Source of the DNA: a virus
Direction: 5' to 3' (one strand)
Virus record (IMG/VR): IMGVR_UViG_3300028133_000281
Span: 1-47,629 of that record
Length of the DNA: 47,629 nt
Shown one piece after another: positions 3,702 through 42,125 of the stretch (the first letter of the stretch is position 1; each line of letters begins with the position of its first letter). The position numbers and the translations under genes are program-made. A model generated the notes under the pieces. That model searched no databases, was not told the DNA's origin, and was given only the letters and a program-made list of their open reading frames with translations.

Positions 3702-3733
3702 TATTTATCTTCCACAGAAAACAACTGTTTTAT
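3702..3733 (-). promoter_or_regulatory. T4-like late promoter with upstream palindrome-like box
   Basis: On the minus strand the 8-mer GATAAATA (3702-3709) matches the T4 late -10 element TATAAATA in seven of eight bases. Eight bases upstream lies ATAAAACAGTTGTTTT (3718-3733). It keeps the TAAAACA half of the box seen at the gp25, gp48 and 10378 promoters but is an imperfect palindrome. It would start transcription about 25-30 bases before the GT-A gene. The upstream box overlaps the last codon of the preceding hypothetical gene. Confidence 0.6.
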
Positions 3734-4332
3734 TTTCTAGCGTATGTGATGCTATCAGACTTATGTGTGTATATACTAAAGGCTTCCTCGTCACTACTAA
3801 GTTTCCTAGCAGTAGTAACTTGGCCGTCAACAGCATCCGCTATATTAAACATAACTCTTTCTAGTAACATATGCGGGTCCTTGTGTGGTGTTACATACAC
3901 CACTAGATTTTGCTTAGACTTTGTGCCCTCTGTAATAGTTAGGTACCAGTTTTTGTCAGTGTAGGATATTAAATAATCTGCATCTTCTCCGGTTTCAATC
4001 TCTTGTAGGAAATCTCTGTCACTTTTAATTTTTGATGTTTCTGTTGTCCGCAGTTTAATGTGACACACATCGTGCTCGTCTTCTTCTATATAGAACTGCG
4101 CTACACTTTTTCCGTTCTCGTCGATAATTTTTGTATCAGGCGTATTGAATTTATAGCACTTACAAGCGTCAAAATCGCTCATGTCCGGCTGTTCGATACT
4201 TTTATACAGTATAGTACCACCAGTATCATAGACCATATACGTATAAGCCTGTGATTCTTTTAGAGCATTTTTCAACCCGCCGTGCTTATCCTTGAGTAGA
4301 GCTAATCGTTCACCTGCTGTTAATTCTGTCAT
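3730..4332 (-). CDS. Hypothetical protein
   Basis: This is a 200-residue soluble protein I do not recognise. It starts MTELTAGERLALLKDKHGGL, a short amphipathic helix. An alternating hydrophobic and polar stretch follows (YMVYDTGGTILYKSIEQPDM, about residues 32-51) that reads as beta strands. The C-terminal third has LLERVMFNIADAVDGQVTTA, likely helical. It has two Cys in CKCY near residue 58 but no metal-site pattern. It overlaps the upstream glycosyltransferase gene by an ATGA-type junction and has a good AAAGGA site in front of the ATG at 4330-4332. The position between two glycosyltransferase-like genes suggests a part in the same process, but the sequence gives no direct clue. The ORF and codon pattern look real. 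Confidence 0.8.
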   Translation of the reverse strand: MTELTAGERLALLKDKHGGLKNALKESQAYTYMVYDTGGTILYKSIEQPDMSDFDACKCYKFNTPDTKIIDENGKSVAQFYIEEDEHDVCHIKLRTTETSKIKSDRDFLQEIETGEDADYLISYTDKNWYLTITEGTKSKQNLVVYVTPHKDPHMLLERVMFNIADAVDGQVTTARKLSSDEEAFSIYTHKSDSITYARK

Positions 4333-5207
4333 ACTGTTGTCCTTTTTCCAAAATAATTTACTTCTAGTTGTTGTATTTTATCTCTAGTCATCCAATCCTT
4401 GTCAACATAATGGAAAGGAAAGTTTATCTTAAAGTTTCCAAGTTTAAAATCAGTATAATCCTTATAGTAACAAGGTATACTATCGCTCCAGTTTTCTTCT
4501 ACTAAACTAGAAGGGATGTTTTGTATGTAGCTCTTCATGTGAATAAATGTAGGCATATCTGTTATATGATCCATCGTGCATTCGTCTTCTATGCCTAACA
4601 ATTGTATAGCCAATGCAAATGCCACATCTGCACTTAACCATTCTGGTTTTCCTTTTGGCATATACTTAAAATAAAATCGTTCCCAATTATTGAATATAAT
4701 TTCTATCATCTTAAAAAGTTCTGTTGCAGTATCACTCTTTTTAAAATAGAAAAATGCTGTATAAACATTAGGCAGGTTATTCTTTTTAAAAAAAGATCTG
4801 TAGTAATAATCTTCAACAAGTTCATTTCTGTATGTTTTTACATTTGTGCAAGCCCATACATCTTTCATACTTAAATGATCCCACCAAAAACTTACATCGA
4901 CAGGGAAGATCATGTCTGTATCTAATATCACAGTCTCATCAAATGGACTCATATAATAATACTTCCATTTGTTGTTTATTTTCCAGTCTTTGCCGTCTGC
5001 AGCATCGTCCCATGGGATATCTATTATGTGATCAAAAACTGCTTTGTGTTTTTCTGTTATAAGTTTTTTTGTAGAAGTGTCTACGCACACAGCAATATTA
5101 TTGACAGTGCTCTGTGTTAATTTAAGGTTGAGTGCTAATGCATACGCTTGGGCAAGATAATCAACCTTACCAGAATTCTGTGCGATTACAATATAGCCTT
5201 TGCTCAT
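4329..5207 (-). CDS. GT-A-fold glycosyltransferase-like protein (paralogue A)
   Basis: This 292-residue protein begins MSKGYIVIAQNSGKVDYLAQ, followed by a helix and strand. The key segment FDETVILDTDMIFPVD carries D-T-D at residues 96-98, the metal-binding D-X-D of GT-A transferases. The phrase 'DETV(I)LD-D' is typical of GT8-like enzymes. A Trp/Tyr-rich region follows (YFKYMPKGKPEWLSADVAFA, about residues 178-197), as expected for the nucleotide-sugar side. It is related to the gene at 5519-6406: both share the opening pattern and the DETIxxD-D block in the same order and length. Start ATG at 5205-5207 overlaps the tiny upstream gene by ATGA, with AGGAAA upstream. Sugar donor and target are unknown. 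It could be an inactive relative, but the acid pair is intact. Confidence 0.66.
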   Translation of the reverse strand: MSKGYIVIAQNSGKVDYLAQAYALALNLKLTQSTVNNIAVCVDTSTKKLITEKHKAVFDHIIDIPWDDAADGKDWKINNKWKYYYMSPFDETVILDTDMIFPVDVSFWWDHLSMKDVWACTNVKTYRNELVEDYYYRSFFKKNNLPNVYTAFFYFKKSDTATELFKMIEIIFNNWERFYFKYMPKGKPEWLSADVAFALAIQLLGIEDECTMDHITDMPTFIHMKSYIQNIPSSLVEENWSDSIPCYYKDYTDFKLGNFKINFPFHYVDKDWMTRDKIQQLEVNYFGKRTTV

Positions 5208-5368
5208 TTACTTTTCCTATATAGCGTAGGAGTTATAAGTGTATATACGTGTTTCTTAGTAGTTAGAGACACACCGTCGAAATTAACAACTTTTTCTTCT
5301 TTTGTTTTTTCAAAGTAATCTCTGAGTTGGCTAAGGCTATTCCAATTTCTTTCCATTATACTAGCCAT
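5204..5368 (-). CDS. Tiny hypothetical protein (54 aa)
   Basis: This is a 54-codon frame starting MASIMERNWNSLSQLRDYFE, with an N-terminal amphipathic helix, a Lys/Glu-rich middle (KTKEEKVV) and a basic, strand-like tail ending LYRKSK. It is supported by context: its stop overlaps the ATG of the next gene as ATGA, and its own ATG overlaps the stop of the previous tiny gene within 8 bases. An AGGAT site lies upstream. Such linkage implies translational coupling along the operon. No signal peptide, membrane segment or known motif is visible, and the function is unknown. Confidence 0.65.
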   Translation of the reverse strand: MASIMERNWNSLSQLRDYFEKTKEEKVVNFDGVSLTTKKHVYTLITPTLYRKSK

Positions 5369-5501
5369 TACTCGGATCCTGCTGCTGTTTTATCCATTCT
5401 GCTATTCTCTTTTCTTGCTCTTTAATTGCTTCTGCTTGATCTTTAATAGATTTCTTTTGAAACTTTAATTTATCACTTTGATGTTTTTGCGACTGTGTCA
5501 T
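5361..5501 (-). CDS. Tiny coiled-coil protein (46 aa)
   Basis: This is a 46-codon frame starting MTQSQKHQSDKLKFQKKSIK, very rich in Lys, Gln and Glu, and predicted to form one long charged helix or short coiled coil up to residue 41. It ends QQQDPSNG. An AGAGGT ribosome site stands 7 bases before the ATG at 5499-5501. Its stop lies inside the start region of the following tiny gene. It follows the glycosyltransferase-like gene by a 17-base gap. The role is unknown; a small helical adaptor for the adjacent glycosyltransferases is possible but unproven. Confidence 0.65.
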   Translation of the reverse strand: MTQSQKHQSDKLKFQKKSIKDQAEAIKEQEKRIAEWIKQQQDPSNG

Positions 5502-5518
5502 ATGTTGTTACCTCTTTA

Positions 5519-6755: not shown

Positions 6756-6760
6756 AGCTA

Positions 6761-6768
6761 TATTTACC
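6761..6768 (-). promoter_or_regulatory. Candidate late promoter element
   Basis: On the minus strand GGTAAATA lies exactly 5 bases upstream of the ATG at 6755, the same distance as GATAAATA before gp25 and before the gene at 10378. It lacks the upstream 16-bp box because the terminator hairpin occupies that place. It would re-start transcription directly after termination of the structural operon. The match is weaker (two differences from TATAAATA). Confidence 0.4.
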
Positions 6769-6772
6769 AGTC

Positions 6773-6806: not shown

Positions 6807-6823
6807 ATTAGTTTTAGTAACTT

Positions 6824-9745: not shown

Positions 9746-10378
9746 TTAATTTAACTGCACTCTCACAGTGTATATAATTTCGATGCTTCTATTTGCACTT
9801 TTTTGAACAGGGTGAAAGATCACATGCGTTAACATTTTACTATCTGCGGGGTCTGTCGCATAACTTAGTAAACCTAATTCGTCGAAAACGTATAAACCAT
9901 CCTGCGTTGTACTTGAATCGAATGTATCCTGTCCAGCGGGTTCATTATAACCCAACGTACAAGTCATTTTTAAATCTGTATAACTTGCCCCTGTGATAAT
10001 TTCAATCTTATCAGTAGATGTGTTGTTACTTATAACTTTTTCGTATGTACGACTATAAAGAGTCGCACTGTTTTCAAATGACTCACTGACACGTGGGTTT
10101 TTATATAACACCTTGCCAGCACCGTCAACACTAGTAGCACCGTTACCAAAAGCCATAAAATGAATATAGGACCCTGCTTCATTAGTTAGTGCACGGGCAA
10201 TTATATTTGCCATGTTACCATAATGTATAGCATTTCTTTTGTTAACAATTTCTTCTTTTGTCTCTGCATCTCTGATTAAAATATGCCCAGACATCTTGAT
10301 GCCGGCATTTTCGTCGGCCGATTTATTCTTTTCCATATTTTTATTCTGCTCATTCTGCAAATTGCTACTATTGCTCAT
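9746..10378 (-). CDS. Conserved virion structural protein
   Basis: This is a 210-residue protein counted from the ATG at 10376-10378. A GTG 15 bases upstream (10393) would add five residues but lies inside the promoter element, so the ATG is chosen. The first 30 residues are Asn/Gln/Lys-rich and probably disordered. From residue 29 the sequence GHILIRDAETKEEIVNKRNA leads into IHYGNMANIIARALTNEAGS and then HFMAFGNGATSVDG. This block is conserved in T4-like cyanophages in a structural protein of unknown place. The rest is beta-rich and ends RSIEIIYTVRVQLN. Its transcript would start at or near the ATG if the late element works as in T4. The neighbours are the giant virion protein and the fibre gene, so a baseplate-to-fibre connector is plausible. 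Confidence 0.78.
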   Translation of the reverse strand: MSNSSNLQNEQNKNMEKNKSADENAGIKMSGHILIRDAETKEEIVNKRNAIHYGNMANIIARALTNEAGSYIHFMAFGNGATSVDGAGKVLYKNPRVSESFENSATLYSRTYEKVISNNTSTDKIEIITGASYTDLKMTCTLGYNEPAGQDTFDSSTTQDGLYVFDELGLLSYATDPADSKMLTHVIFHPVQKSANRSIEIIYTVRVQLN

Positions 10379-10383
10379 AGTGT

Positions 10384-10415
10384 TATTTATCACTTATTGT
10401 TAAAAACTGTTTTAA
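10384..10415 (-). promoter_or_regulatory. T4-like late promoter with upstream palindromic box
   Basis: GATAAATA on the minus strand (10384-10391) lies 5 bases before the ATG at 10378. Eight bases upstream is TTAAAACAGTTTTTAA (10400-10415), a near-perfect palindrome that overlaps the stop codon of the giant gene (10412-10414). Box, spacing and 8-mer match those before gp25 and gp48. It would drive the three fibre/structural genes separately from the giant gene. Confidence 0.75.
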
Positions 10416-13400
10416 TTACTGTCAAAGTTGTGTAAGAAGTCAACTATACTGTCATTTGACTTCAATACATCTCCTCGGTCTGTTAAACTTGTTGCTTTCT
10501 TAAAGTCTTCTGTTGCTGCATCCCATCCGTTTTCTTCATCAATATCGTATGTCAATGTATGTCCACTACCAGTAAACTCAATAACATTGTCTCCGGTACC
10601 GTCCCAAGCACTGTCTAAACCAACCGATACGTTGCCCGAATCATATGTTAGTCCTGCTGCACTTAGTGAGCCCGAGCCGTCCCACGAATTATCAAGCGGT
10701 ACTGATATCGAGAACACCTCTACTGGTTTCAACCAATTGAAGTCTTCTGGGTCTCTCAGTGCCTCTCCTTTTCCGTTTCTAAGAGCTATGTTTTCTGTTT
10801 CTTCTCCGTTATACAGTTCAGCACCCACTTGCACTAATAAATTAATAGTAGTTCCGCGGACACCTCTTGTAATCCCAGAAATACTTTTATCTAGGACATT
10901 TATTGTTGTGTAACTTATTAACTCGCCTGATAGCCACACACTTGCTGGTCGTGTTGCAGATGCAAATGGAAGATTAGTAATATCATTTAAGTGTATTTTG
11001 TCTTCCCAATTATTTACTTGCTGTGCAACAGTTGTCAATGGATTCATCGATCGTCTATAATAATCAGTTCTACCAAATAGATCCATAACTAGTAGGAATC
11101 TAACATCACTACTTGTTGCGCTAATTTCAGTATTACCCAATGTTGTAATATCCATTACAAGTGTTTCTAGAGGTTCTACAACTATTAACTCTTCTGGACG
11201 ATCTGGGCCCGTTCTGTGTTTGAGGAATGTAGTGCCATCGAATCCGTATACAGTTTCGTTGTCAATTCTGTAATTAACATTGCCTTGTGTGCCTTCATCG
11301 AATATACCAACAAAGTTGTTTACATCAACATCCTTATCCCATATATCAGTATCCCATCCATACACATCAAACCCTAGTGCGTCATTGTACACATAGGATG
11401 GGTGTTGCCCAGGAACTATATCTAAGAACGTTGCGCCGTCAACTAGTTCTGCATTCAATGATCCGCCAACTGCATTTCTTACCATACTAAGAACAGTGTC
11501 TAATTTTCCTGAGTCTATCATGCTAGTAACAATGCTGACATTTTGTATAATGTTTGCATCTACTGCTGCACCCGATCCATATTCTGTCTCGTATGCTTTT
11601 GTTATTTCCTGTCGAATCTCAGGATTGAATTTATAAACACGCTCCGGTGCTGTCCAAACTTGCTCAACATTTGAAATATTTGCAATACTGTTAGACTCTA
11701 CATTTACAAGGTTTTTCGCTATGCTAACGTTAATAGTTTCCATTGTAGGATCATATCCTTCGAAATATGTTAATTCGATCAATGCCCCGTTTTGAGGTAT
11801 ACCTATTCTGTTGTTAACATTCGCGTCATTAGTAAAGGAAAGGAAACTATCTGCAGTGTTAATCGTGTAGTTGATTGTTGGGTCTATGCTAGTAATTTGG
11901 CCGAATGTTCCACTTACATTTCTGTAATCTATATTACGTGTCACATTTACTGTTGTTGTCTTTTCAGCGTCTGCATAAACCTTTGTGTCATTGTATTCGT
12001 TATATCTTATTGATGTAATGACTGCTTCGGTTTCTTCACCTAAAGGCGTTGTATAAATTACCTTGCCACTTGTTATAGTAGACAAGTCAACTGAGTCTAA
12101 TACAGTTGAAGTAGTAGGAACAGCCTGGGAGTTTACAAAACTTTTTATATCATCGAAATCCACAACAATTTGTTCGCTAGTGGTTTTGTTAATAGTAATA
12201 TTTGTATTACCTATGTTGACACCGTTAGAAATAACATTAACTAATTTAACGCCCTGTACTCCAATTGGCATACTATGCCCTGGTGCAATAATAGTAGCTG
12301 TATCGCTTTCATTTATATCCACAAAATACGTTTGCCCGTACAGCGACACTATAGGGCCGTCTGTGAACTCTATAGTACTGTTGCTATTAATAGCAGATGT
12401 TCTATCAGTAATAATTGACACATTAGACAATTCTGTTGTTGTGAATTCAATGTCTGGTGCAATGGACTGTCCAATTTCTTCATCCCACACACCTGGCGCA
12501 GTGTTACTAGGATTATTTGGATCAGTGTCCCATGGATTCAAATCCCAAGATGTATTTGCAACAATGATATTACTCATCTGCTCATCTCTAAGTACAAACT
12601 TGTCGCCTACGTTTTGATTGTGTGCGGTTGTCGTCATGTTAAAGCTAGATATCGCACCGTTTGCATCAATGTCGATGTCAACAATTATAGATGTACCAAA
12701 GTCTGATCTTGCTACGAGATTTGTAAACGATCCTTCGTTTCTAAATACGTTTGCTTCAGCGTCAGTTACGACAGTTTCGACTGTGCCAACCACATTGCTA
12801 ATAAGCTCATTATCAAATGCTGTCGGTGGTACTAAATCACCATCAACTTTCACTTGCAATCTAGTAACATCTTCTACTAGTGTGTTAAAGCTAAATCCGC
12901 TTGAGATGCCATCTGCTCGGAATGTTTCAATTTTTCCACCTGTTGCATTCTCGTACAATGCACCTTTAACACGGTCAAATACAATTTGTGTGCTTGTTTT
13001 ACGCACTTGTGCATTACTGCTCACAAAGCCTGCATACTCACTAGCTGTATTGAGTATGTCGACATCAAATTCGTTTGCAGTATCTAGTATCCTAACTTCT
13101 TTCGATTCCTCATCATAATAAGGAGGTCTATCGAAGTCTGTTGTACTACCAGCTAATATTTCCACTGGAGCTTTTTTAATATCTAAGTAGTTTCTAATCT
13201 TACTACTGTAGGGTTTAACATCATTAAAATATTGTAATGCTTTATCAAAATTATCTACTTTAAAGCCTTTAGTAGGCACTAGATCAGTTTCTTCCTTGAT
13301 AATGTTCAAGTAAGTTGTTTTGAACGCCCAGTCAAGTTCTCCTTGCTCTGAGTATGCATATTTCATCATCTCATAAAAGAACTTGTTCCAATAAATTTCA

Positions 13401-16400
13401 AATGTGTTTATAAACACACTGCTGTAAAGTATACTCAATACTTCACGTATCTCTTTACCCATTTTAGTTGAATTAGCATCAGTATATATGCTTGCTTTCC
13501 ACTCTACAGTTTCATTTTCAATAGCAATTAGTTTGAAACTATTTGTTTTCTTAGCATACTCATACAAACTATATGGTGAGTTACTGTCTTTTTGTACTTG
13601 TATGATACTGAGATCTACTAAATTTTTGATCAAAGCAAACTTAGTATTGTCTGTCACTTTACGTAGAGGTCTATATGTATCATCATAAAATACGTCTGAG
13701 TTGTCGATTTTATTAACTCTTAATTTTTCATACCAGTCGACTTGTTGTAAATATGTAAGATCCGATGGTAGTTGTGTTTGCCAATCTACAAACGTTGTAT
13801 TCATTTTCAATTCTTTAAATATTGAGTTTAGTACATCGTACATTTGCTTTCTAGCTTTACTTAGATCTTTAAACATCGTTTGTCTTGGTCTAAACTTGCT
13901 ACCGTACCGTTCGAATGCACTCAGTCCTTCTCCAGGAACAGTCTGGCCCAGCGCATCCATGCTGGCTAAACTGTCTATTAACTTAACAGACAGTACATCA
14001 GGAACCTTAGAGTTAGGATCACCTTCAGCTGACAATGTCCACGATGTATGCTTTTCAGTGTCACCTTCCATTCTTCTCAAGAACTGTGTGCTAAAAATAC
14101 TTCCATCAGTTTTGATCAGTGGAGCGAGTTGGTTAACGACTATACTATCTGGTGAAATGTAGCCTGCGTAGCTAACTCTTTCTCCGTTAATATCTGAAAG
14201 CAACCGCTCTATTTCAACTGTAGATCTTTCTTTTTGTAAATTATATCTAGCAGTATTACCCACTGTTTCCTTACCGTATACCCAGAAATAGTAATAAACG
14301 GTTGCTTTGCCGCTAGTTTTATTGTAAAATTGCTGCTGTATAAACTCGCCTGTTTCAATAGGGAAGCCGCCACCGGTGTATGCTTCAGGTGGGGTTATAC
14401 TTTCTACCCACTCGTAAATTCTAATAACACTACCCGGGAAATGTTCACCCCATGATGCAGCACGTTCAGTGTTGTTGTAGCCCGTAGGACCATATGTTCC
14501 TTCACCCTGTTCATACCAAGTGTATCGTACTAAATTCGTATTCCACCATCTTCTTCCTATCTGTTTCTTGCCCCATGCACTTCTCGCCATGTCGTACACA
14601 ACAGGATCAGACTTGGTAGTATAGTCAATTTCTTTTTCTATATATCCGGGTATTATTCCCTTGAACGGATCGAATAAGTTAACATCAAATTCTTTTTCTG
14701 CACTTATTTCATCAAATGTAAATACATCCCGTATTAATTTTGTATCGACTAACGGTTCTTGTTTTCTTATGACATTGCCGTTCTGCAAATATGCCCAACC
14801 CTTACCATCGTAATTATCGATCCATGCATGAGAAATATTTGCAAGGTCTAAATTACTTTCTGTAGCATGCCGCATACTCTCCAGCGCATGTACATCTACA
14901 CGCTGTCTGTCTTTGGTATTAGTAGGAATAATACTTGACTGTCCGTCTAAATTAGTGAGCTTGTATTCGTATATGTCGCCTTCGACTTCTGTTGATGCCC
15001 ATAACGGGGTCGACATACTTTCTAGTCTTGTTCGTTGACCGACTGGAATTTGCGACAATGCTGCTTCACCTGCCTGAGGGTATGAGAATCTAATACCTTT
15101 GTTTAGGGTATCTAGGTTAGTTCTCGGATCAGCTCCCAGAGTTGATGTTCCGTCTTGATTAGGTAAATTAACAAGGAAATCTCGCTCGCTTGGGTCGCCG
15201 CCACCGGGGCCGCCGCCTCCGTCAGGATCTTCGACAAATACTTCCCTAAATTTCTCTTTTACTGGCTCGATTTCAGGAATGACCGCGTTTGTTGTTGCTC
15301 CCGTTGGTAAGTTTAGTGCTCTTATCAGTCCAGGATTATATGTATCATCAAATTGAATGCCGTCAATGTCATCGCCTTCGACAACAACTTCTGGCAGACC
15401 ACCTGGTCCAAAATTCAGTGCAGCAGTATATAACGGAAAACCATTGGGATCAGTTGGTGCATAATCGTTTAACGTGTTAATGAAATGCTCGATTGGATCC
15501 GGTGCTTCATATACACCTGGGTCTACTCCAAATTTGCTTAGTGTGTCGGACTTCACTGTGCAATCAGGTAGCGCATGCGCTGTTAAGAATACTCTTCCGC
15601 CAGTGCCGCTTCCACCAATTAGAGGTAGACCACTATCCAAATCGCTCGGGAACTGTTTGTATACCCCTCGTTTTTTCAAACTTAATCTTTGCACTCCGCC
15701 CAATGGATCTACACTGGTCACAATAAATTCTGCTGGCTGTATTTTCTGTAGTGAATTTTGCTGGGATTGATCGAATGCTGGAGAAGATGTAAAATGTTCT
15801 ACCATTAATTCGGCTCCTTCCCCATCACCGATAATGCTAACACTAGTAGCGCCACGCTCAATACTATATCCTGAATTATCTGGGCTAATATTACTGCCTG
15901 AGCCTTTAGTACGCATCAGTATTCTACTGCCGCCAGCTAAGCCAACTATTGCTCCTGTAGCATCAACATCGAGTGTTGCATAGTTTACTCTTGCCTTCTT
16001 TCTACAATCGCCGTTAACAATAATTTTGAGGCCAGCTTTGTTATACCCAGTGCCGCCAGCGACCACTTTTAATGCTACTACCGAAGACAATGCTTCAAAC
16101 GGTCTGTTCGAAGGATTTTGGTCTGACATCAATCCTGCAGCAAGTGCTTCTTGTAGAGTTGCTGGCACGCCGCCTACAACTGTTACTACATCGTCGACTC
16201 GATAACCTGCACCATTCGTTTTTGTTATAGTGGAAGGTGTATGTGACGCTGCTTTTTGTTGTGCAGTAATAGTATTATATATGTAATTAGTTCCGGACGC
16301 TGTTGTATTCGTACTACCAAAATCGCCTGGATTGGCAACAACTTCTGGAGGATCATCTGACGTCTTCGCAGTCATCGGTGGCATATTAATAGTAACACTA

Positions 16401-30031: not shown

Positions 30032-33000
30032 TAATACGTTCCACCGCTTGAGTTATTTGTTGCACTATTTGGTATAGTGTTATTGGTAACATTTTGTTTA
30101 GTAGTTGTGCCTGAGCCTGCTACGCCAACTTCAACCACATAATTTCCGTGGAAGTTTTCTATGCCGTCTGGCATATAAAATGTTTTTCCAAAAAATTCAT
30201 GTGTATGGTATGTTCCACTACCATAAAATTCAGCTGCCGTTGTAGTTGAATACAGCGGATAATATCCATTAATAGCATATGGACCAACATCAGCACCGGG
30301 ATTTTCGTAAGTAGAGAATGTTCCTTGTGCTAGAGGACTTTTAAGATTTGACTTCGTTATCTTATCTACAATTTGAATATCATCAACAGCGGCAGTACTA
30401 ATAAACAGTTCGTCTGGGTCTGCCTTAACTTGGAAAAGATCGCCGAACACACTACCCGCTTTCCTAGGCACAATAACAATACTGCCAATAGCGTTACCTA
30501 CTTGCTGGTGTATAAAGCTACTTAACTCTGTAAAATAAAATGTGTCGCCGAATTCCCAATTGCTAATATCAAAATATGCATTGATAGAACTGATTACTTT
30601 GGATTTAATCTCGTTATCACTTAATGTAGATCCTGCTAATCTAACAACTTTAAATGTTGCTTGCAATTCAGACGCGGCATCGTCGCCGAACAACAGTTTA
30701 AATCTTCCGCTTCTAAATATTAACTGATCACTTGCCGCTTTAATATCTTCTAGATTTTGAAATTCTGTTGCAAGTTGTGTCGTTGTAGGTTCAGTTGGCC
30801 ATGGAGTCCCAGGAACGTTTAGGTAAGTTAAAACTTCATTATAATAAGTTTCTGTTAATACAAACAGTTCCTGTACATTACTGATACTAGGATCTATTCT
30901 AACACTGTTGTCTACATTGTGCTGCCATTTGAAATACACATCCTCGAGGTTACTACTAAGAGTATTTTGTGTAAAACTTTTTCCTATTTTTGCAGTATGC
31001 GAAGAACTACCATAATGCTTGACCACATTTAAATTTGTACTACTGTAAGACAATTGGAATACTTTTCCAGAAGCTGCCGAGTATACTTTTTTGTTATGCA
31101 TTCGACCAACTTGATTATCAAACTGTGCGACAACTGTGTCGTCCTTTACAAGGAAATATTCGTAATTATCTACATCGTATACCGTGCCAAAATCTGTCGT
31201 TGCGTCACCAGTTGACGTACCTGCAATTTTTGTAAATAGTGAATTAAAGTTAATACTATTTTCTCTTCGTAAATCTAAAATATTATCTTTTACAGGACGA
31301 GTAATAGTATAACCATCGAACGTAGGCACGTCTTCAAATAAGACTAGATCATTTGGGCCAACAAACTCATTGAACTGTGTCGGGCGATCTGGGCTATCGT
31401 CACCGGTACTGTTATATGGTGTTACTTGTATTTTTCTTGGATCTGTATAACCATCGGCATACCTAAAGTTACCAACTGCACTCCAAATGATTGGAGCATC
31501 GAGCTTTTCTTTATTAGTTAAATATGTTATTATAACAGTATCCTTGCTTGCTACTCCGCTGCTGTCAAGGGCAAAATGTCTGTTAGTTCTAAAGTCATTG
31601 ACATTGATCGTACCTGTTTGTGCGGACACGTTAACATCTGTTAGTGTTATATGTCCGTTAGCAGATCCATTAGCGGCAGCATAAAAAACGTTTCCTTCGT
31701 ATTTGTATTCAATCTCGCCATTGTTATTCAATATATTGATACCAAACGTGGTATTAGTAAAATTAACATTTAAGTTTTTAGGAATACTGTGTACTACACC
31801 AGTATTATTTGCTATGATAACATTTGTATTACTGTTGATATCGCCTGTGTCGAAATCTGTACCTAGAGATATTGTAGCATTTTGCACAAACGTATTTGTA
31901 CTGCTATCGCCGCCTTTAAAAAGCCCGAAGTTAGAATGCACATCTACTGTTACTTGGTCAAATGTTGTCGCTCTATTCTTCAATGGTAAGTTGTCAAATC
32001 CTTGTCCTACATCAATACTATACCATGAGTCGCCTGAACCGTTTTGAGTGGTGTCTCTCCACTCAAATGTTTCGTCGGAAGAATCGCGAGTATTAAGTGT
32101 GGATAGTTCTACCGTGTCGTATTTTGCTAAACCGGTAAAACTGTCTACCACTCTGTTTTGATTTATGTTATAAAATCTCACTTTCTCGTAACTTTCGAAA
32201 ATATATCTAATTCCTCTAATTTCTACTTCGTAAAGATAACTTAATGCGTCTACAGGAACATAGGAGAATTTTAATAACCATGTTTTGTCTCGATTGTTGC
32301 CTGACTTGTCCTCTGCTGTACCAGAGTCAAACGGGTCATCTACATTTATGTCGTTATTTGTTATTACATAGAAATAATTACTGCTAGAATTATAGCCTAC
32401 GCCAAACGTTTCCTTAGCCTTAATGCGATCGCTAATAGCTTGGGCTTCTGCTTCAAAGAATAGTTTTCTCAATGTTGCAATAACTTCTGTGCCTAGCCAT
32501 CCTGTATCTACTGATTCACTAAGTGTAAAAGGACCAATAATATTCGAACTTTTACTAATGCGTCTACCGTTATCTCTGATGCTAATTATCTTAACCCATT
32601 TAAAGTTTGTTGCGTCAGTAGGATCAACGAATTTTATAAGGTTGCCTGCTTGTATAACTTTTAGTGTAGGATTAGTATTATTAACATCTGAAATAGTGCC
32701 GCCTTGTGTAATAGTTTCAGTCATGTACCCCGTCTCGCTGGAAGGAGTCTTAGGTAATGTTTGCCACGTTACGTTGAACAATGCTAGATTAAATCTGTTT
32801 GGTTCTTTAGCCATCCAGTCAGATCTGAAGGTCGAATAAACAAAATCGTTCAACTCTAGCGTTCTTAGGAAGTTAGGGAAAATCTTTTCTATTTGTTCCT
32901 GTGCTGTATTGTTTTTATCTATCACAAAATCTTTACTAATTGTGACGTCTTCCTTGTATAAAAGTCCGTCATCAGCCACTACAGATGTTGTCTGAAAAGT

Positions 33001-34419
33001 TGATGTAGGATCAGTGATATCTATAAATCGACTGTGTCCTGCATGTGTTTTGTTTGTTACTTTAATTTTAGCAATGTTTATATTCTTTGCTTGTGGTAAT
33101 ACTTGGTAGTCTTGAGCAGACACCATTCTGTCTTGTGCGTAGAATGCTTGTGGGGCACGTTCTTTTATTCCTGCTATTGTTTCCTTTGGCAGGCTGTTAT
33201 TAACTGACTCAGCTAGTCGCATAGTTACAGATAAAACAAACTGTTCGCCACGCTCATTTATGTACGGTATATTTGTAATTACATTTCCTATATCATCAGG
33301 ATTTATAATATATCGCTGACTATCACTAACCCTATAGTGAAACCTGTAATTTCCCACAGGTACACTTGCAAAGTTACCGTCTGCAAACTGTAATCTAATT
33401 CCGCCTGGACCTAAGTTCTGCACGGCATATAATAAAGAGCTGTCCTTTGCAAGTGTATTAAACTGCAATGTTTGCCCTACTGTATTTGGTATTCGTTCCC
33501 ATTTGGCATTTGGTAATCCAGTTACCTCACTGAGTTGTTGTAGATATACATCAGTCTCATTTATATTATCAGTTGTTATATCTTGGAAACGATTTTCTAC
33601 AGGAACATCAAACACAAAATCCTGTGTCTGTAATATCCCTTGTTTAAACATAAAAAAGAAGCCATTATTTTTACTAGATAATCCCAAGCCATCATTCCTG
33701 TGGATTATTCCAAATCTGTTTGTGGGATCTGGATGCTTTTCATAAATTTTATCGTTGTCTTCAAAATCTGCGTTGACTAGTTCGAAATCTTTTTGCACTC
33801 CGTTTATTTGCGATTTAAACTTATGTGCAATGGGCGAGGACACTGGAGTATTAATTTCATATAAGTCCGTAACAATACTGTTAATACTACCAGTCTTAAC
33901 AGGCTTACTGAATCTGTTGACATTGCCGAATGCACTGTTCATTATAGTTACAAATTGCTCATATGCTTGAGGGTTGTTAGCATCGTTCCATGTAATTGTT
34001 TTGTTACCAAGCGGATTGTTTGCGCCGTCAACTAGCGGCTCTGTTGTACTAATACTTGTGACTTTCAGTAGACCGCTTGCAGCTATATTTCTTTTTGGAT
34101 TGTACCCTAACTGCCTAGCTAATTTGTAAACACTGTCTTGTCTTTCTGCAGTTTCTAGGAAGTTTTCACGGGTGTTAATATCCATTCTAAATGCAATACT
34201 TTGACCTAGATATGCAAGCAATTCTATAATTGCAATAAATTCCGAACTTTCAATATAGTCATTGAAGTTTTCTGGGAAGTTTGTTTTGATATAGGTTACC
34301 ATTGCTGATCGAATAGTATCAAAATCGTATGCTTGTAAACTTACTTGGCTGTATGCTTTATACGCTACATCCCAATCTTCTGCCGCAAATAAGTTATTCT
34401 GTCTGCTATTAACTGCCAT
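30031..34419 (-). CDS. 6: Baseplate wedge protein gp6 (baseplate J family), enlarged
   Basis: gp6 forms the inner ring of the T4 baseplate, and the wedges dimerise through it. The N-terminal 130 residues are diagnostic: AIIELLAYLGQSIAFRMDIN followed by TRENFLETAERQDSVYKLAR and QLGYNPKRNIAASG, the typical gp6/baseplate-J opening. Residues about 330-480 hold the beta-rich core (GGIRLQFADGNFASVPVGNY, then MRLAESVNNSLPKETIAGIK and ERAPQAFYAQDRMVSAQDYQ). With 1462 residues it is about twice the 660 of T4 gp6. The extra length follows residue 640 and is mostly beta-rich with a helical gp6-like end (about 1230-1340: FRSGRFKLLFGDDAASELQ and SYFDISNWEFGDTFYFTELS equivalents). It starts 1 base after gp25 and its stop overlaps the giant gene. 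Family assignment is very secure; the extension's role is unknown. Confidence 0.95.
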   Translation of the reverse strand: MAVNSRQNNLFAAEDWDVAYKAYSQVSLQAYDFDTIRSAMVTYIKTNFPENFNDYIESSEFIAIIELLAYLGQSIAFRMDINTRENFLETAERQDSVYKLARQLGYNPKRNIAASGLLKVTSISTTEPLVDGANNPLGNKTITWNDANNPQAYEQFVTIMNSAFGNVNRFSKPVKTGSINSIVTDLYEINTPVSSPIAHKFKSQINGVQKDFELVNADFEDNDKIYEKHPDPTNRFGIIHRNDGLGLSSKNNGFFFMFKQGILQTQDFVFDVPVENRFQDITTDNINETDVYLQQLSEVTGLPNAKWERIPNTVGQTLQFNTLAKDSSLLYAVQNLGPGGIRLQFADGNFASVPVGNYRFHYRVSDSQRYIINPDDIGNVITNIPYINERGEQFVLSVTMRLAESVNNSLPKETIAGIKERAPQAFYAQDRMVSAQDYQVLPQAKNINIAKIKVTNKTHAGHSRFIDITDPTSTFQTTSVVADDGLLYKEDVTISKDFVIDKNNTAQEQIEKIFPNFLRTLELNDFVYSTFRSDWMAKEPNRFNLALFNVTWQTLPKTPSSETGYMTETITQGGTISDVNNTNPTLKVIQAGNLIKFVDPTDATNFKWVKIISIRDNGRRISKSSNIIGPFTLSESVDTGWLGTEVIATLRKLFFEAEAQAISDRIKAKETFGVGYNSSSNYFYVITNNDINVDDPFDSGTAEDKSGNNRDKTWLLKFSYVPVDALSYLYEVEIRGIRYIFESYEKVRFYNINQNRVVDSFTGLAKYDTVELSTLNTRDSSDETFEWRDTTQNGSGDSWYSIDVGQGFDNLPLKNRATTFDQVTVDVHSNFGLFKGGDSSTNTFVQNATISLGTDFDTGDINSNTNVIIANNTGVVHSIPKNLNVNFTNTTFGINILNNNGEIEYKYEGNVFYAAANGSANGHITLTDVNVSAQTGTINVNDFRTNRHFALDSSGVASKDTVIITYLTNKEKLDAPIIWSAVGNFRYADGYTDPRKIQVTPYNSTGDDSPDRPTQFNEFVGPNDLVLFEDVPTFDGYTITRPVKDNILDLRRENSINFNSLFTKIAGTSTGDATTDFGTVYDVDNYEYFLVKDDTVVAQFDNQVGRMHNKKVYSAASGKVFQLSYSSTNLNVVKHYGSSSHTAKIGKSFTQNTLSSNLEDVYFKWQHNVDNSVRIDPSISNVQELFVLTETYYNEVLTYLNVPGTPWPTEPTTTQLATEFQNLEDIKAASDQLIFRSGRFKLLFGDDAASELQATFKVVRLAGSTLSDNEIKSKVISSINAYFDISNWEFGDTFYFTELSSFIHQQVGNAIGSIVIVPRKAGSVFGDLFQVKADPDELFISTAAVDDIQIVDKITKSNLKSPLAQGTFSTYENPGADVGPYAINGYYPLYSTTTAAEFYGSGTYHTHEFFGKTFYMPDGIENFHGNYVVEVGVAGSGTTTKQNVTNNTIPNSATNNSSGGTY

Positions 34420-34420
34420 C

Positions 34421-34798
34421 TTAAACCTCTAGCTCTTCTTGGAAATATTCTACGTATAGACTGTCTGGGTCCAAAAACGGTAAAATTGTGAGCTGTACAT
34501 CTGCTCTGATCGTGTGTTCTAACACGGATAAAAAAACATCGCCTAGCTCTACTCTAGGGTCTTTGGACACAATACGTTTAATTTCGTCTTCTACTTCTGC
34601 AACAACAAAATCGTCTAACGGATTCATGATCATGTCGTGAATAGTAGTTCCGTAATTAGGTCTCATTACACGCTCCCCTTTACGGGTCAACAGCTCGTTA
34701 ACAATGTCTGTTTTAATAAGCTCTGCATCGGTCAGTGTATAGGGTGCTCTGACTTTACCTTTAGTACTAAACCCAGTGTAAATTCTATTTTGTTCCAT
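34421..34798 (-). CDS. 25: Baseplate wedge protein gp25
   Basis: This 125-residue protein has the gp25/GPW lysozyme-like baseplate fold. Key conserved segments are LLTRKGERVMRPNYGTTIHD (residues 37-56) and PLDDFVVAEVEDEIKRIVSK (about 60-79). The RGER..P.FG block is the family hallmark, although the fold has no lysozyme activity. Length is close to T4 gp25 (132). gp25 sits at the core of each wedge with gp6 and gp53. It is the first gene of the long minus-strand structural operon and lies 1 base before gp6. A late promoter box lies directly upstream; only 5 bases separate the 8-mer from the ATG, and no ribosome site fits between them. Confidence 0.96.
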   Translation of the reverse strand: MEQNRIYTGFSTKGKVRAPYTLTDAELIKTDIVNELLTRKGERVMRPNYGTTIHDMIMNPLDDFVVAEVEDEIKRIVSKDPRVELGDVFLSVLEHTIRADVQLTILPFLDPDSLYVEYFQEELEV

Positions 34799-34803
34799 AC
34801 TAG

Positions 34804-34835
34804 TATTTATCCACGAGTGTTAAAACATGTTTTAA
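34804..34835 (-). promoter_or_regulatory. T4-like late promoter with perfect palindromic box (gp25)
   Basis: On the minus strand GATAAATA (34804-34811) is preceded, after an 8-bp spacer, by the perfect 16-bp palindrome TTAAAACATGTTTTAA (34820-34835). The 8-mer ends 5 bases before the gp25 ATG. This is the clearest copy of the bipartite element and should drive gp25, gp6 and the giant gene. Confidence 0.8.
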
Positions 34836-34948: not shown

Positions 34949-35218
34949 ATGAAACATGTCTTGCAACGATTTGACAGCATTATTGCAAAAATGCATAGAG
35001 TAAATGCTCAAATTGCTGAAGGGAACACAACGAACACTGGCTTCGGCCCGCGGTTCATTAAATTGATGCATCAATCAGGGAGACGTATAGAGTCTATCGG
35101 CATCTACGATTATCATACCAAAAAATATGTTCTTTTTGATATGGTTAATATGGTAGGTTCCAAGAACTTGCCTAAAGAATTAAAGCAAATGGACTCCATG
35201 CTTAATGTAAATGGATAA
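34949..35218 (+). CDS. Hypothetical protein, first gene of antisense cassette
   Basis: This 89-residue protein starts MKHVLQRFDSIIAKMHRVNA and opens with an amphipathic helix. It then carries FGPRFIKLMHQSGRRIESIG and IYDYHTKKYVLFDMVNMVG, two strand-like segments that read as a small alpha/beta unit. It is basic overall, with no Cys and no recognised motif. AAGG precedes the ATG at a normal distance, about 56 bases after the sigma70-type -10 box. Its stop overlaps the start of the hydrolase gene by 8 bases, so both are likely co-translated. An early takeover or regulatory role fits the promoter type, but nothing in the sequence proves it. Confidence 0.75.
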   Translation: MKHVLQRFDSIIAKMHRVNAQIAEGNTTNTGFGPRFIKLMHQSGRRIESIGIYDYHTKKYVLFDMVNMVGSKNLPKELKQMDSMLNVNG

Positions 35219-35840
35219 TGCCTGCAACCTAGTATTCATACACGGTAGCGGACAAAGTTCTATAAGCTGGAATTTTTATAATGTTTTTTTGCCGGAGTAT
35301 AGATCATTGCACATCGAATATGATGTGCGTGATGATATTTTTCTAGTAAAAAACAGAATACAAGACCAAATACTAAAGTTTGAATCTAATCAACCTATAA
35401 CTATTATTGCGCACAGTTACGGATGTCTTATCTCTGCGTTATTAGTAGATTCTTTGCCTAATCTTAAATGCTTTATTGCATTAAGTCCCCCATGGGGCGG
35501 CAGTCAAACTGCACGGTGGCTTAGCAAAGCATTTAGGTCAAATTCGTTATTCAAAAATACAACACCTAACAGTGCTGTTTTAGAACAAATCAACAAAATA
35601 GAAACACATATACCCGTACATAATATAATCACAACGGGCGGGGCTAATCCACTAGCGGGACTAGGCGAGGAATCTGCTAATGATGGCATGGTAACTGTTA
35701 AAAGTCAAGAAAAGTGCCCTGGCACATTTCATAATCAACAGCACAAACGATTCGGTTTAAGTCACAGCGAGATTTTATTATCATTTGATGCAGTAGAACA
35801 TATAGCACACATCCTAGAAGGAAAAAATCATGACAACTAA
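35211..35840 (+). CDS. Alpha/beta hydrolase, lipase/esterase-like
   Basis: This 209-residue protein shows a full alpha/beta-hydrolase plan. The first strand ends in HG at residues 11-12 (oxyanion region). The nucleophile elbow is AHSYG at 67-71 with Ser69. After strand 6 comes LSPPWGGSQTARWL. The acid is probably Asp158 in NDGMVTVKS, and the base is His185 in GLSHSEI. The order and the 'NDGMVTV...SH' pair are typical of small lipases and PGAP1-type esterases. The elbow is A-X-S-X-G rather than G-X-S-X-G, which occurs in some active lipases. No signal peptide is visible, so it would act in the cytoplasm unless released at lysis. Substrate is unknown; lipid or thioester are candidates. It overlaps both neighbours and is read from the sigma70-type promoter at 34865. 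Confidence 0.85.
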   Translation: MDNACNLVFIHGSGQSSISWNFYNVFLPEYRSLHIEYDVRDDIFLVKNRIQDQILKFESNQPITIIAHSYGCLISALLVDSLPNLKCFIALSPPWGGSQTARWLSKAFRSNSLFKNTTPNSAVLEQINKIETHIPVHNIITTGGANPLAGLGEESANDGMVTVKSQEKCPGTFHNQQHKRFGLSHSEILLSFDAVEHIAHILEGKNHDN

Positions 35841-36027
35841 CGTTGTAGAGGGATCGCACACACATTTAGAGAGTATGCGCAAAGAACTTGCTGATTTACT
35901 TAAAGCTAATAATGCATTAAGGGATCGAATTATTGCACTTGAAACAGCAGTAAGAGAAGAACAAGAAGCAAAATATCGTGCGTATGTTAGAATTGCAGAT
36001 TTGACGAAATTAACTAATCAGGTGTAA
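35830..36027 (+). CDS. Small coiled-coil protein
   Basis: This 65-residue protein starts MTTNVVEGSHTHLESMRKEL. From residue 12 to the end it is one heptad-patterned helix (LADLLKANNALRDRIIALET, then AVREEQEAKYRAYVRI), so a dimeric coiled coil is likely. Its start overlaps the hydrolase stop. Its final 10 bases overlap, tail to tail, the end of the gp5-like gene on the other strand. No terminator separates the converging transcripts, so transcription from the two strands would collide here. Function is unknown. Confidence 0.75.
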   Translation: MTTNVVEGSHTHLESMRKELADLLKANNALRDRIIALETAVREEQEAKYRAYVRIADLTKLTNQV

Positions 36028-38720
36028 AAGGAATAATCCTGCAACTGTACTTCTTTTAAAGCCCAGCTACTAGCCTGCATGAGCCATAGATTGTCTGTAC
36101 CATCAGGTAGAACAAACAACCTTGCTTCAGCTTTTCGACGATAGCTCCATATAGGATCTATTATGCCGAGATTCGACACACTCCATCTTTGAATTTCTGT
36201 TGGTACAGCTGACATATTGCCGGATTGTATAGCACCTAAGACACCGGATCTTAACCAGTTACTGTATCCTATTCCATGACCGAAGCTGACTATAGACATG
36301 AAATGTTGGTTTGAAAGGCCCGGTGAACGTTTTAAACTTTTAGAGATATACTGTCTTGCATTGTTCAAGTCTGCTTCCAGTAATAATGTTCCTTGTTGCT
36401 CAGTCATTGTTCTATCTAACTCGTACATAGTGACTTGACGGCCGAGGTCTTGAACATCGCTTAGTTGCCAGCCGTTGCCTTCGGTGTTACGTGTTGCTCC
36501 CATAGCAGTAAGTTCTGAGTATCGGCGGTCTTTCACTAACCTACTTGCCTGGTCAACTGTCACCACACTACCTGTCGCTGTTCTAAACGGTAGCTCTGCA
36601 GTTGGCTTTACTACTATTGGCCCTGCATGCGTTTCTCCTGCAACATAACTTCCTGGGTTACCTTGTATCACTACATTTCTGTCTAGCTCTACTGGAGATA
36701 AAAAATGGTTTTTTCCAACAACATGGCCGACTAGTTGATTTGCCGGAGTGACATCTTGTTCTTCGCTGTTATCGAACCCTCTGTTACCCCAGTCTCGCAT
36801 CTTACTCATAGCCTGTACCGGTGAGCCAACTGATGTTTTTACAGGAGTATTTACTATTATGCCTGATTGCATTTGTGCCGTTTGTGCCATTTTGTCGGCC
36901 ATAGCTTGATTTGCAGGATCGCCTAATTCTGCAGCTGACTTTAATACAGTGGGCTTAATATTAAAACCTTGTGGCGGTTGTACAGGACCAAACAGCGCAG
37001 TAGTTCCTGTGGGTAGTGTCTGCCCGGGTGGCTGTAGGTTTGCTCTGCTGCCGTTTGGTAATTGATATGCAACTGGTTGTATCAGCCCCACAGTGTCACC
37101 TGGTCTTCCAACTTCTGGTTGTACAGGCGGTTGTGTATCACTTCCTATTGATTGTGGCTCTAAATTAGCTATTGCGGAATCATTATTACTGTCCTGGTCT
37201 ATAGCCAAAGCATTTCCTTGCTTTTTAGTTTCTATAATATGTCCGTACCAAGGCTCTCTAGTAGTCAATTCAGTACATATAGAGACAAGTTGCGTAAGAT
37301 CGCCAGGGCGTTGGCCGTCTGTAGGGAATGGGTTGGTTGAGCCTGACACAGCATCTTCGTCATATTCAAATTCAGGTACAGCATTTGGCGGCTCTTGAAA
37401 CGCAAATGTTTCTAGAAAATCTACAGCATCAGGCATTGTTGCTTGTTCAGCTGACCCACCGTCATTCAAGTGAACCGTGGATCCTAATACATTGTTTCTG
37501 CCACCTGCTTGTGAATTTACGGCTCCGCCAGCTTTAAAATTCATTGATGCTGCTGATGTTATAAACGTGCTTTCACTGGAAGTTAAATTCATACTAACTG
37601 CGGTAGCCATTCTCATAGGCCCAGTTGCGTATAAATCTATCGGGCCTTCGTCCTGTACATCAACATTATAGCCGCCACCACCAGTTTTGTTGTTAATTAT
37701 GCCACTAGACTGAATATTAATTTGTCCGTTTGTATCACCAGCAAGTGCCAGGTTACCAGCGTTAACATTGACAGCAACCTGCGCATCAATGTTAACGTTA
37801 CTGTCTGACTTCAAATTAATATCGCCCCGGGCTCTTACTGTATATGTTTTGTCGGAATACAGATTTATGTCACCGGCCGCATTAATTTCTGCCCATGCTG
37901 TCCCTCGGTGATTTATAACATACAATAATTCGTGCGTGTCATCCATTAAGATTTGAGCGCCGCCGCCTGTGCGTAATCTAATATGTCTTTGGTCCAAGTT
38001 ATCATCCATCACAAAACTATGACCGCCCATTCTATTAGTGCCGTCTACTTTTGCTGTCCCTGGAGATAATTTATCCGGACCAGGAGTTAATATACCAAAA
38101 ACTTCGCTGGGAGATTCTCTACGTGCGCTGGATGTTGTTAGTCCTCTAATAGGATCTAAAATTAGTCCTTGGTTAAGTACAGGTAACGTTGTATTAGGGT
38201 GCAAAGGTCGTGTAGTGGTATAGCCATGGTTGGGATTATTTACCCGACGATTTATTTCCGCCGCTGGAGCTGGTATAGTCGCTCCGGGAACAGACGTGGC
38301 CGCATTGCCCGGGACCATAAATTGTAATTGGTCAGGAAATAAACAAGACACGATAATAGGAAATTTCTTTTTACCGTCTGCAAAAGCTACTAAAACAAAA
38401 TTGCCTGGATCTGGTGGAACCATCCACATGCCGTAGCTCTTTTGTGTGTGGGAGAACTGATCTGTATTTTCTCCAATCTTTGCACTAGGCGTACTTCCTG
38501 CAAATGGACTCGTCCAGTATGCGTAGTAATAACCCGACGGATCGTCCCTATCTTTGCCGAGCATAGGAATATACACAGGAATCCTGCCGCTGTGTGTCGA
38601 GTCTTTCGGGCGTACAATGACTTCACCAATATAGATACCGAAGTCTAGATCTGCAGAACCTCGAAGTTTGTCCCGGGTATTTGTTTTTGAAAGCCTAGAA
38701 CTGTTAGGTGTATATGACAT
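36018..38720 (-). CDS. 5: Baseplate central spike/hub protein, gp5-like, with displaced lysozyme-like lobe
   Basis: T4 gp5 makes the central spike that pierces the envelope and carries a lysozyme. Here residues about 25-130 form the OB-fold start (YIGEVIVRPKDSTHSGRIPV, then WMVPPDPGNFVLVAFADGKK). Residues about 240-400 are the VgrG-like spike (HIRLRTGGGAQILMDDTHEL, then repeated DINLKSDSNVNIDA-type strands). Residues about 770-865 match the C-terminal lobe of GH24 lysozymes: MTEQQGTLLLEADLNNARQY, FMSIVSFGHGIG, then YRRKAEARLF. In T4 the lysozyme lies between OB fold and spike; here it lies after the spike. I could not find the Glu-Asp-Thr catalytic lobe before it, so activity is doubtful. Between are low-complexity Pro/Gln-rich linkers. 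It starts directly after the hub gene stop (TAAATG). Length is 900 against 575 in T4. Confidence 0.88.
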   Translation of the reverse strand: MSYTPNSSRLSKTNTRDKLRGSADLDFGIYIGEVIVRPKDSTHSGRIPVYIPMLGKDRDDPSGYYYAYWTSPFAGSTPSAKIGENTDQFSHTQKSYGMWMVPPDPGNFVLVAFADGKKKFPIIVSCLFPDQLQFMVPGNAATSVPGATIPAPAAEINRRVNNPNHGYTTTRPLHPNTTLPVLNQGLILDPIRGLTTSSARRESPSEVFGILTPGPDKLSPGTAKVDGTNRMGGHSFVMDDNLDQRHIRLRTGGGAQILMDDTHELLYVINHRGTAWAEINAAGDINLYSDKTYTVRARGDINLKSDSNVNIDAQVAVNVNAGNLALAGDTNGQINIQSSGIINNKTGGGGYNVDVQDEGPIDLYATGPMRMATAVSMNLTSSESTFITSAASMNFKAGGAVNSQAGGRNNVLGSTVHLNDGGSAEQATMPDAVDFLETFAFQEPPNAVPEFEYDEDAVSGSTNPFPTDGQRPGDLTQLVSICTELTTREPWYGHIIETKKQGNALAIDQDSNNDSAIANLEPQSIGSDTQPPVQPEVGRPGDTVGLIQPVAYQLPNGSRANLQPPGQTLPTGTTALFGPVQPPQGFNIKPTVLKSAAELGDPANQAMADKMAQTAQMQSGIIVNTPVKTSVGSPVQAMSKMRDWGNRGFDNSEEQDVTPANQLVGHVVGKNHFLSPVELDRNVVIQGNPGSYVAGETHAGPIVVKPTAELPFRTATGSVVTVDQASRLVKDRRYSELTAMGATRNTEGNGWQLSDVQDLGRQVTMYELDRTMTEQQGTLLLEADLNNARQYISKSLKRSPGLSNQHFMSIVSFGHGIGYSNWLRSGVLGAIQSGNMSAVPTEIQRWSVSNLGIIDPIWSYRRKAEARLFVLPDGTDNLWLMQASSWALKEVQLQDYSFYT

Positions 38721-41081: not shown

Positions 41082-41084
41082 GTG

Positions 41085-41384
41085 TTACCTGATCACTGTG
41101 TTAATTGTTTGTTGTGTGGGTAAAAATATTGTTTTACCTGCTGTAAAATCCTCTAACGGGTCTATAAGTAAATCTGGGTTTCTCAAAGCAAATACCCACC
41201 ACAGTTGTACACTGCCATAAAGTTTAGATGCTAGTAAATCCGGTCTGTTTTCATATCTTGCTTCTATTTCGTAAACAGTATCTCCCATACTCTTAGGTAT
41301 CTTGGGCAGATTATTTACGTCTAGATACAACCCACGCAGTTTTGCATTCTTTAAAAAGCTCTGATCGGAGTGTATATTAGCCAC
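41085..41384 (-). CDS. 53: Baseplate wedge protein gp53
   Basis: This 99-residue protein carries the gp53 core: YENRPDLLASKLYGSVQLWW (about residues 44-63), then VFALRNPDLLIDPLEDFTAG and KTIFLPTQQ. The 'YG...LWW.....N...DP......G..I.LP' pattern is the LysM-like part of gp53 that clamps gp25/gp6 wedges. It is half the T4 length (196), as in other marine relatives. The start is GTG at 41382-41384, with an AGAGGATT site about 14 bases away. It follows the gp48 gene by 2 bases. Confidence 0.92.
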   Translation of the reverse strand: MANIHSDQSFLKNAKLRGLYLDVNNLPKIPKSMGDTVYEIEARYENRPDLLASKLYGSVQLWWVFALRNPDLLIDPLEDFTAGKTIFLPTQQTINTVIR

Positions 41385-41386
41385 TG

Positions 41387-42076
41387 TTAAATAAATCCTC
41401 TATTGTAGTCCTTTCCGCTTGTAAATGCGTCTAGGTCAAAGCGTTTCCTTAGCTTCTTATATGTATATTGAGGGGCCATGTCTATCATAATTTCTGTTTC
41501 AGTTGGCATGTATGTAGTAGTCTTTTTGGCGCCTGAGCCGACTTCGACTGGCACATAATCCACGCTGTCTGGTAAATTAAAACTATAGCTTCTTATAATT
41601 ACAGGAACTTTATTAAATCCAAACTGTCCCAAATATTCAAATAACATTACTGGAGGTGGTGTGCCGTAGTTACCAGCTTCAACTGCACTGTCGCCATAGT
41701 ATGACTTAGTTACACTACGCAGGAAGTGGAATACTGCTAACAAATATTGCGCTTCTTCTTGCGTATTAGCAGTCCATTTTCCCTGTACAGGAATAACAGC
41801 TGGTTTAGAATTTAAGTAAGTGTAAAACGGATAATTAGACCCGTGTTGAGCAGCTTCGTTATAGTCTACTGAACTCTGTAAGAACAAGTTAGGTGTATAA
41901 GGAAACACTATACCGCCCCTATCTTTTAACGGCTGTAGTATACTTCCGTTACCAGACGACATACCGTAAGCAAAGTCTTCGCCGCCTCTCTTCGGGCGTA
42001 TCCGAGCTCGCCAGTCCACCTTGGGTGCTGGCACTGTATCTTGCAAATCTATAAATTTTCCGCCTGCTGTAGTCAT
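41387..42076 (-). CDS. 48: Baseplate tail-tube cap protein gp48-like
   Basis: This 229-residue protein is counted from the ATG at 42074-42076. An in-frame ATG 42 bases upstream would put the late element inside the gene and is rejected, while AGGAG sits properly before the chosen start. Diagnostic segments are GGIVFPYTPNLFLQSSVDYN (about residues 59-78), a NYPFYTYLNSKPAVIPVQGK block, EEAQYLLAVFHFLRSVTKSY and PPPVMLFEYLGQFGFNKVPV. Together they match the gp48/gp54 type tube-initiator proteins that cap the baseplate and start tube assembly. T4 gp48 has 364 residues, so this is a shorter form. It is the first gene of the gp48-gp53-hub-gp5 operon and has a bipartite late promoter. gp54 cannot be excluded as the better name. 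Confidence 0.82.
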   Translation of the reverse strand: MTTAGGKFIDLQDTVPAPKVDWRARIRPKRGGEDFAYGMSSGNGSILQPLKDRGGIVFPYTPNLFLQSSVDYNEAAQHGSNYPFYTYLNSKPAVIPVQGKWTANTQEEAQYLLAVFHFLRSVTKSYYGDSAVEAGNYGTPPPVMLFEYLGQFGFNKVPVIIRSYSFNLPDSVDYVPVEVGSGAKKTTTYMPTETEIMIDMAPQYTYKKLRKRFDLDAFTSGKDYNRGFI

Positions 42077-42093
42077 AATTACTCTCCTAAAAG

Positions 42094-42125
42094 TATTTAT
42101 CTGAATAAATAAAAACATACTTTAA
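42094..42125 (-). promoter_or_regulatory. T4-like late promoter with upstream palindromic box (gp48)
   Basis: GATAAATA (42094-42101, minus strand) is preceded after 8 bp by TTAAAGTATGTTTTTA (42110-42125), a near-palindrome aligned with the gp25 box. Unlike gp25 there are 17 bases to the ATG, including AGGAG. The 8-mer also forms an inverted repeat with ATAAATA on the other strand. Confidence 0.75.

Follow-up and report, generated by a model that had tools for sequence, protein, structure and literature searches.

A palindromic box at a fixed distance from the gp55-type late element marks baseplate promoters in a group of jumbo phages

Introduction

In the textbook view of T4-type late transcription, promoters carry no upstream element and a single signal serves every late gene. 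The locus studied here raises the question of whether a palindromic box forms part of such promoters and, if so, before which genes. The window, that is, the whole stretch of DNA analysed (47,629 bp; IMG/VR record IMGVR_UViG_3300028133_000281), comes from a jumbo myovirus related to PA5oct, RaK2 and Atu_ph07. A sequence-only reading of it had proposed a late promoter of two elements, the octamer GATAAATA and a palindrome upstream of it at about -37 to -22, and knew of no published description; our literature searches, covering openly licensed papers, likewise found no report of this box.

The late sigma factor of the window matches those of Sinorhizobium phage Phosso (47.7%), PA5oct (45.7%), RaK2, CBB and Atu_ph07, and the gene order around its gene is similar in the window and in these relatives. 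The comparison set comprised about 80 related contigs or loci, most of them chosen around gp55 and near-identical loci included. The window also matches part of a 339,794-bp contig (G001), which was treated as the nearly complete genome of this phage or of one very close to it. The phages carrying the box are jumbo (giant) phages, mostly marine. According to Pfam, G001 (L088-L104) contains host-like genes for an alternative oxidase, ferredoxin-type proteins and ribosomal protein S21, with further matches to ClpS, Hsp20, an SCP2 sterol-transfer domain and CsgG.

Results

The window contains four copies of GATAAATA, every one on the minus strand. At three of them a near-palindromic 16-mer close to TTAAAACNNGTTTTAA ends exactly 8 bases upstream (Table 1), so that the bipartite sites described at 10384-10415, 34804-34835 and 42094-42125 are confirmed. 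Since the first base of the octamer is -13 in T4 numbering (PMC2988020), a spacing of 8 places the box at about -37 to -22. A half box had also been claimed at 3702-3733. There, positions 3718-3733 read ATAAAACAGTTGTTTT, with a matrix score of 1.8 against 16.5, 21.4 and 13.9 for the other three boxes, and in five relatives the orthologous gene has GATAAATA with no box found (scores -6.7 to -14). Because of the low score and the boxless orthologues, we consider this site an ordinary late promoter. Amid the baseplate genes, positions 10412-30031 of the minus strand hold a single open frame of 6,539 codons, probably encoding a giant tail or fibre protein.

Table 1. Promoter elements and genes of the window
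Feature	Position	Strand	Remarks
GATAAATA, ordinary late promoter	3702-3709	-	claimed half box unsupported
phrog_11259 gene, third boxed gene	9746-10378	-	4.3e-62
GATAAATA	10384-10391	-	before phrog_11259 gene; ATG after 5 nt
box TTAAAACAGTTTTTAA	10400-10415	-	before phrog_11259 gene; spacing 8
gp6-like baseplate wedge gene, in gp25 operon	30031-34419	-	phrog_10646, 1020 bits
gp25-like baseplate wedge gene	34421-34798	-	phrog_261 1.5e-17
GATAAATA, late -10 element	34804-34811	-	gp25; ATG after 5 nt (predicted leaderless)
box TTAAAACATGTTTTAA	34820-34835	-	gp25 promoter; spacing 8; predicted -37 to -22
89-aa protein gene, divergent from gp25 promoter	34949-35218	+	positional candidate for box factor only
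gp5-like hub / tail lysozyme gene	36018-38720	-	phrog_13211 2e-35
gp53-like baseplate wedge gene	41085-41384	-	phrog_7145 7.6e-25
virion structural gene, first of second boxed operon	41387-42088	-	phrog_12050 4.6e-49
GATAAATA	42094-42101	-	virion protein / gp53 / gp5 operon
box TTAAAGTATGTTTTTA	42110-42125	-	virion protein / gp53 / gp5 operon promoter; spacing 8
sigma70-like promoter of gp55 gene, TTGACT-17-TATACT	42149-42177	+	read from sequence
gp55-type late sigma factor, 290 aa	42218-43090	+	phrog_12791 2.5e-93, phrog_234 8.7e-24

When genes were clustered behind GATAAATA, the box was present before the virion protein heading the gp53/gp5 operon in 70 of 75 loci, before gp25 in 53 of 56, before a tape-measure-like gene (a label from a weak PHROG match, 1.3e-5) in 27 of 27 and before the hub gene in 22 of 26, all counts being inflated by near-identical loci and drawn from loci mostly picked around gp55. 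Portal promoters had it in 0 of 11 loci. A search for gp25 promoters made independently of the box gave 36 distinct ones, 31 of them boxed, all at spacing 8; the remaining five come from more distant contigs. The whole of G001 and six longer contigs contain the same gene set plus the phrog_11259 gene, which is boxed in spacing-8 contigs (G002, G003, G008) and has a weak box or none in spacing-7 contigs. A further boxed gene, with no assigned function, lies at 42345 (-) of G001 with spacing 10, and its relative in L256 has spacing 11.

This distribution is too narrow for a general part of the late promoter: G001 has 61 copies of GATAAATA, most just before open reading frames, and only about six are boxed. 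In G001 and the longer contigs, the sheath, tube, head-tail adaptor and fibre promoters showed no box, and the capsid gene has neither box nor octamer within 400 bases upstream, being probably transcribed with the portal operon. The sequence-only reading had named a lack of the box before other late genes as refuting, and the box is indeed lacking before portal, capsid, sheath, tube and fibre genes. Its conserved position ahead of baseplate genes nevertheless shows that the element is real, and its absence before the portal, capsid and sheath operons makes it the mark of a subset of late promoters. The three-site observation is real and the bipartite layout stands for this subset, but its extension to all late promoters is wrong.

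Neither element is rare in the window: GATAAATA alone was seen 4 times against 3.6 expected, and the box alone, with up to 3 mismatches, 5 times against 1.3. What exceeds chance is the fixed arrangement of the two. Among the 80 related loci there are 134 distinct GATAAATA sites, versus 15 to 28 for other NATAAATA, and the upstream profile TTAAAAC..GTTTTAA was seen only with GATAAATA. The spacing is 8 in one clade and 7 in its sister clade. A matrix trained on the spacing-7 clade only and applied to the distinct GATAAATA sites of the other clade found 41 of 76 boxed, at spacing 8 (34) or 4 (7) only, while its null rate at random positions was 0.8%. At gp25 promoters the box is about 90% conserved, with the spacer near background. 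Scanning public viral contigs for the composite site, at any spacing between 4 and 12, yielded at least 119 stretches; the distinct stretches among the matches listed had spacing 8 (25), 7 (23), 12 (10), 4 (6) or 11 (1), and the octamer began with G in 53 of these 65. The same pattern matched 45 times in 257 Gb of bacterial and archaeal genomes, at scattered spacing and with G first in only 3.

The box is A/T-rich, and TTAA-N8-TTAA resembles the alphaproteobacterial CtrA site TTAA-N7-TTAA. It could be a host-regulator site or a structural A-tract, acting through contact with the alpha C-terminal domain or bending, rather than the target of a dedicated phage factor. However, the gap is 8 and not 7, and the site differs from that of CtrA in its fixed inner bases: at the gp25 promoters of the spacing-8 clade the inner C and G never vary, nor does the symmetry. 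Bacterial genomes, moreover, lack a composite site of fixed spacing. We find this explanation highly improbable.

Spacing is also fixed within genomes of the relatives, as a spacing test suggested by the sequence-only reading now bears out: in 62 of 64 loci the gp25, virion and tape-measure promoters share one value, a concordance inflated by near-identical loci. The sister loci L007 and L024 are the two exceptions, each deviating at one promoter. The gp55 tree gives the spacing-7 group one common origin (support 96/93), and the clade-level spacing change is one event touching several promoters. Such a concerted one-base shift fits a protein that touches both the box and the polymerase. Hub promoters fit a strict contact model poorly, as their spacing is usually 4, sometimes 7, and a spacing of 4 puts the box on another helix face. 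In the spacing-7 clade, gp25 promoters have a strict upstream half-site and a looser downstream half.

Promoter arrangement varies among these phages. The hub and tape-measure promoters (for example at L002 18809-18887 and L014 19429-19530) stand back to back in some and face each other with overlapping leaders in others, each with its box. At the border of gp55 and the virion operon, many spacing-8 phages have octamers overlapping head to head as TTTATCNNGATAAATA (L005 9888/9891, L017 9909/9912 and relatives), and in the window the strand of the gp55-facing octamer reads AATAAATA at 42104. Some spacing-7 phages (L048, L062, L070 and relatives) have there one box between divergent GATAAATA, 7 bases from the virion octamer and 12 from the one facing gp55, so that the late sigma gene may have a late promoter of its own.

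That shared border box would suit an operator, on which a repressor would cover the -35 region and keep the baseplate operons low or late, for example against overproduction of the low-copy hub and wedge proteins. The strong symmetry, the overlap with polymerase-covered DNA and the restriction to genes for low-copy structural proteins also agree with repression. A repressor, however, needs neither base-exact spacing nor a one-base shift common to several promoters, and we regard this possibility as unlikely.

The named relatives differ from the boxed phages. PA5oct, CBB, RaK2 and the examined part of Atu_ph07 contain no boxed GATAAATA; orthologous genes with the octamer have no box, and several of the same genes have boxless ATAAATA promoters. 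The box was thus gained in one lineage or lost in others. Sequences of CBB and RaK2 such as TATTATACCACA were rejected as boxes, since on the opposite strand they look like a sigma70-type -10 element.

Two proteins had been suggested to read the box, gp55 itself through an extended contact and an extra dimeric factor. The late sigma of the window, whose best PDB fold match is T4 gp55 (7d7c_F, weak), is longer than T4 gp55. Its extra N-terminal region of about 150 residues (42218-42700), common to the RaK2/PA5oct group, is predicted with fair confidence and gave no informative match against solved folds. A two-part sigma that reads the box through this domain would also agree with the one-base shift tracking the gp55 phylogeny. 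But the domain occurs in boxless PA5oct, RaK2, CBB and Atu_ph07, whose gp55 is of similar length and aligns over more than 90% of it, and the extended contact is weakened by this. Most promoters of the same phage are boxless, and a monomeric sigma leaves the symmetry unexplained. We rejected the N-terminal domain as box reader on account of its presence in boxless relatives, and a sigma reading the box seems improbable.

A separate dimeric factor is the better reading of the two, although no convincing box factor was found among the HTH_39 and small proteins of G001, relatives of T4 DsbA, gp33 and gp45, or the 89-aa protein. The gene for the latter is kept with boxed loci and was not detected in boxless relatives; this co-occurrence is one linked character of one clade. 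The 89-aa protein has a confidently predicted new fold with no PDB or PHROG match, which leaves it a positional candidate only. Its gene lies in a cassette (34949-36027, +) between gp25 and gp5, with genes for a lipase-like hydrolase and a 65-aa coiled coil, conserved in boxed phages and not detected in boxless ones. The HTH_39 protein was rejected: relatives of it occur in dozens of other viral contigs, and it went undetected in partial contigs of the box clade. Among the 25 families listed in each Pfam tally of small proteins from G001, none stood out as a further DNA-binding regulator. No relatives of gp33 and gp45 were found, gp33 being divergent and the Pfam clamp models matching nothing even in controls, and none of DsbA in G001 by phmmer or tblastn, the GapR Pfam model missing T4 DsbA too.

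The octamer has a second regularity. Of 251 distinct GATAAATA sites, 56 have an ATG after exactly 5 nt, far more than at neighbouring offsets; GATAAATA-N5-ATG occurs at all 56 gp25 promoters and, in the window, at 34798-34811 and 10378-10391. G001 contains 19 copies of ATAAATA-N5-ATG and 3 of the reversed control; the corresponding counts are 8 and 4 in PA5oct and 2 and 0 in T4. With a T4-like start, the ATG would be the first codon of the mRNA, and these genes are predicted to have leaderless late mRNAs, independently of the box.

Discussion

From what can be read directly in these genomes (box, gene set, fixed spacing, lineage and sigma gene), we infer an activating protein that binds the box, with the gp55 polymerase as its partner. 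In the composite late promoter that we propose, a gp55-type sigma on the host RNA polymerase would read GATAAATA at -13 to -6, and a dimeric DNA-binding protein would bind the palindrome. The dimer may contact the polymerase at the place otherwise taken by sigma region 4, or in T4 by gp33 and gp45, which would allow the baseplate, hub and tape-measure operons to be raised in expression or timed separately from the remaining late genes. A dimer touching the polymerase is favoured by the symmetry together with the fixed, jointly shifting distance. We give this reading, a gp55-type -10 element plus a palindrome-bound dimer setting baseplate operons apart, a probability of about 0.55. The confinement of the palindrome to the baseplate set suggests a dedicated regulator for building the baseplate. 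More tentatively, and with the odds slightly against it, we propose that a lineage of jumbo phages has split its late genes into two regulons, the baseplate operons having their own activator box at a set spacing from the gp55 -10 element, and that most boxed promoters followed when the geometry of activator or sigma changed by 1 bp in one clade. If the box is confined to baseplate genes, assembly modules would divide up the late phase, and a new regulator would await discovery; contact geometry can be tested directly through the one-base shift shared across the clade.

An activator box in the -35 region is familiar from T4 middle promoters, where the MotA box, centred near -30, replaces the -35 contact for one promoter class. 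The MotA box lacks symmetry and goes with a sigma70 -10 element; the box described here, in contrast, is a palindrome and accompanies a gp55 -10 element.

The late motif reported for CBB and GAP32, of the same wider phage group, is ATAAATA with A/T-rich DNA downstream, nothing further being given (PMC5259590), and it likewise lies before structural genes. T4 DsbA is, as our factor would be, a small protein of its own, and its A/T-rich sites overlap late promoters; they were reported at two promoters, with low affinity and without effect in the standard in vitro system (PMC2988020). As the sequence-only reading had stated, T4 late promoters lack an upstream box, reviews giving no conserved -35 sequence (PMC2988020, PMC7892883). 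On T4 upstream DNA gp33 contacts only the backbone and gp45 encircles it, with no sequence preference (PMC7892883). The T4 late promoter resembles those described here in its octamer, nearly TATAAATA at -13 to -6 before virion genes, and in its phage-encoded sigma of the gp55 family. Two features found here set them apart, G as the base at -13 and, for a subset of promoters, a palindrome between -37 and -22; such a box in gp55-type late promoters has no counterpart in T4. Thus, the boxed baseplate subset departs from the T4 type by its conserved -35 region, while the other late promoters of the same phage conform to it.
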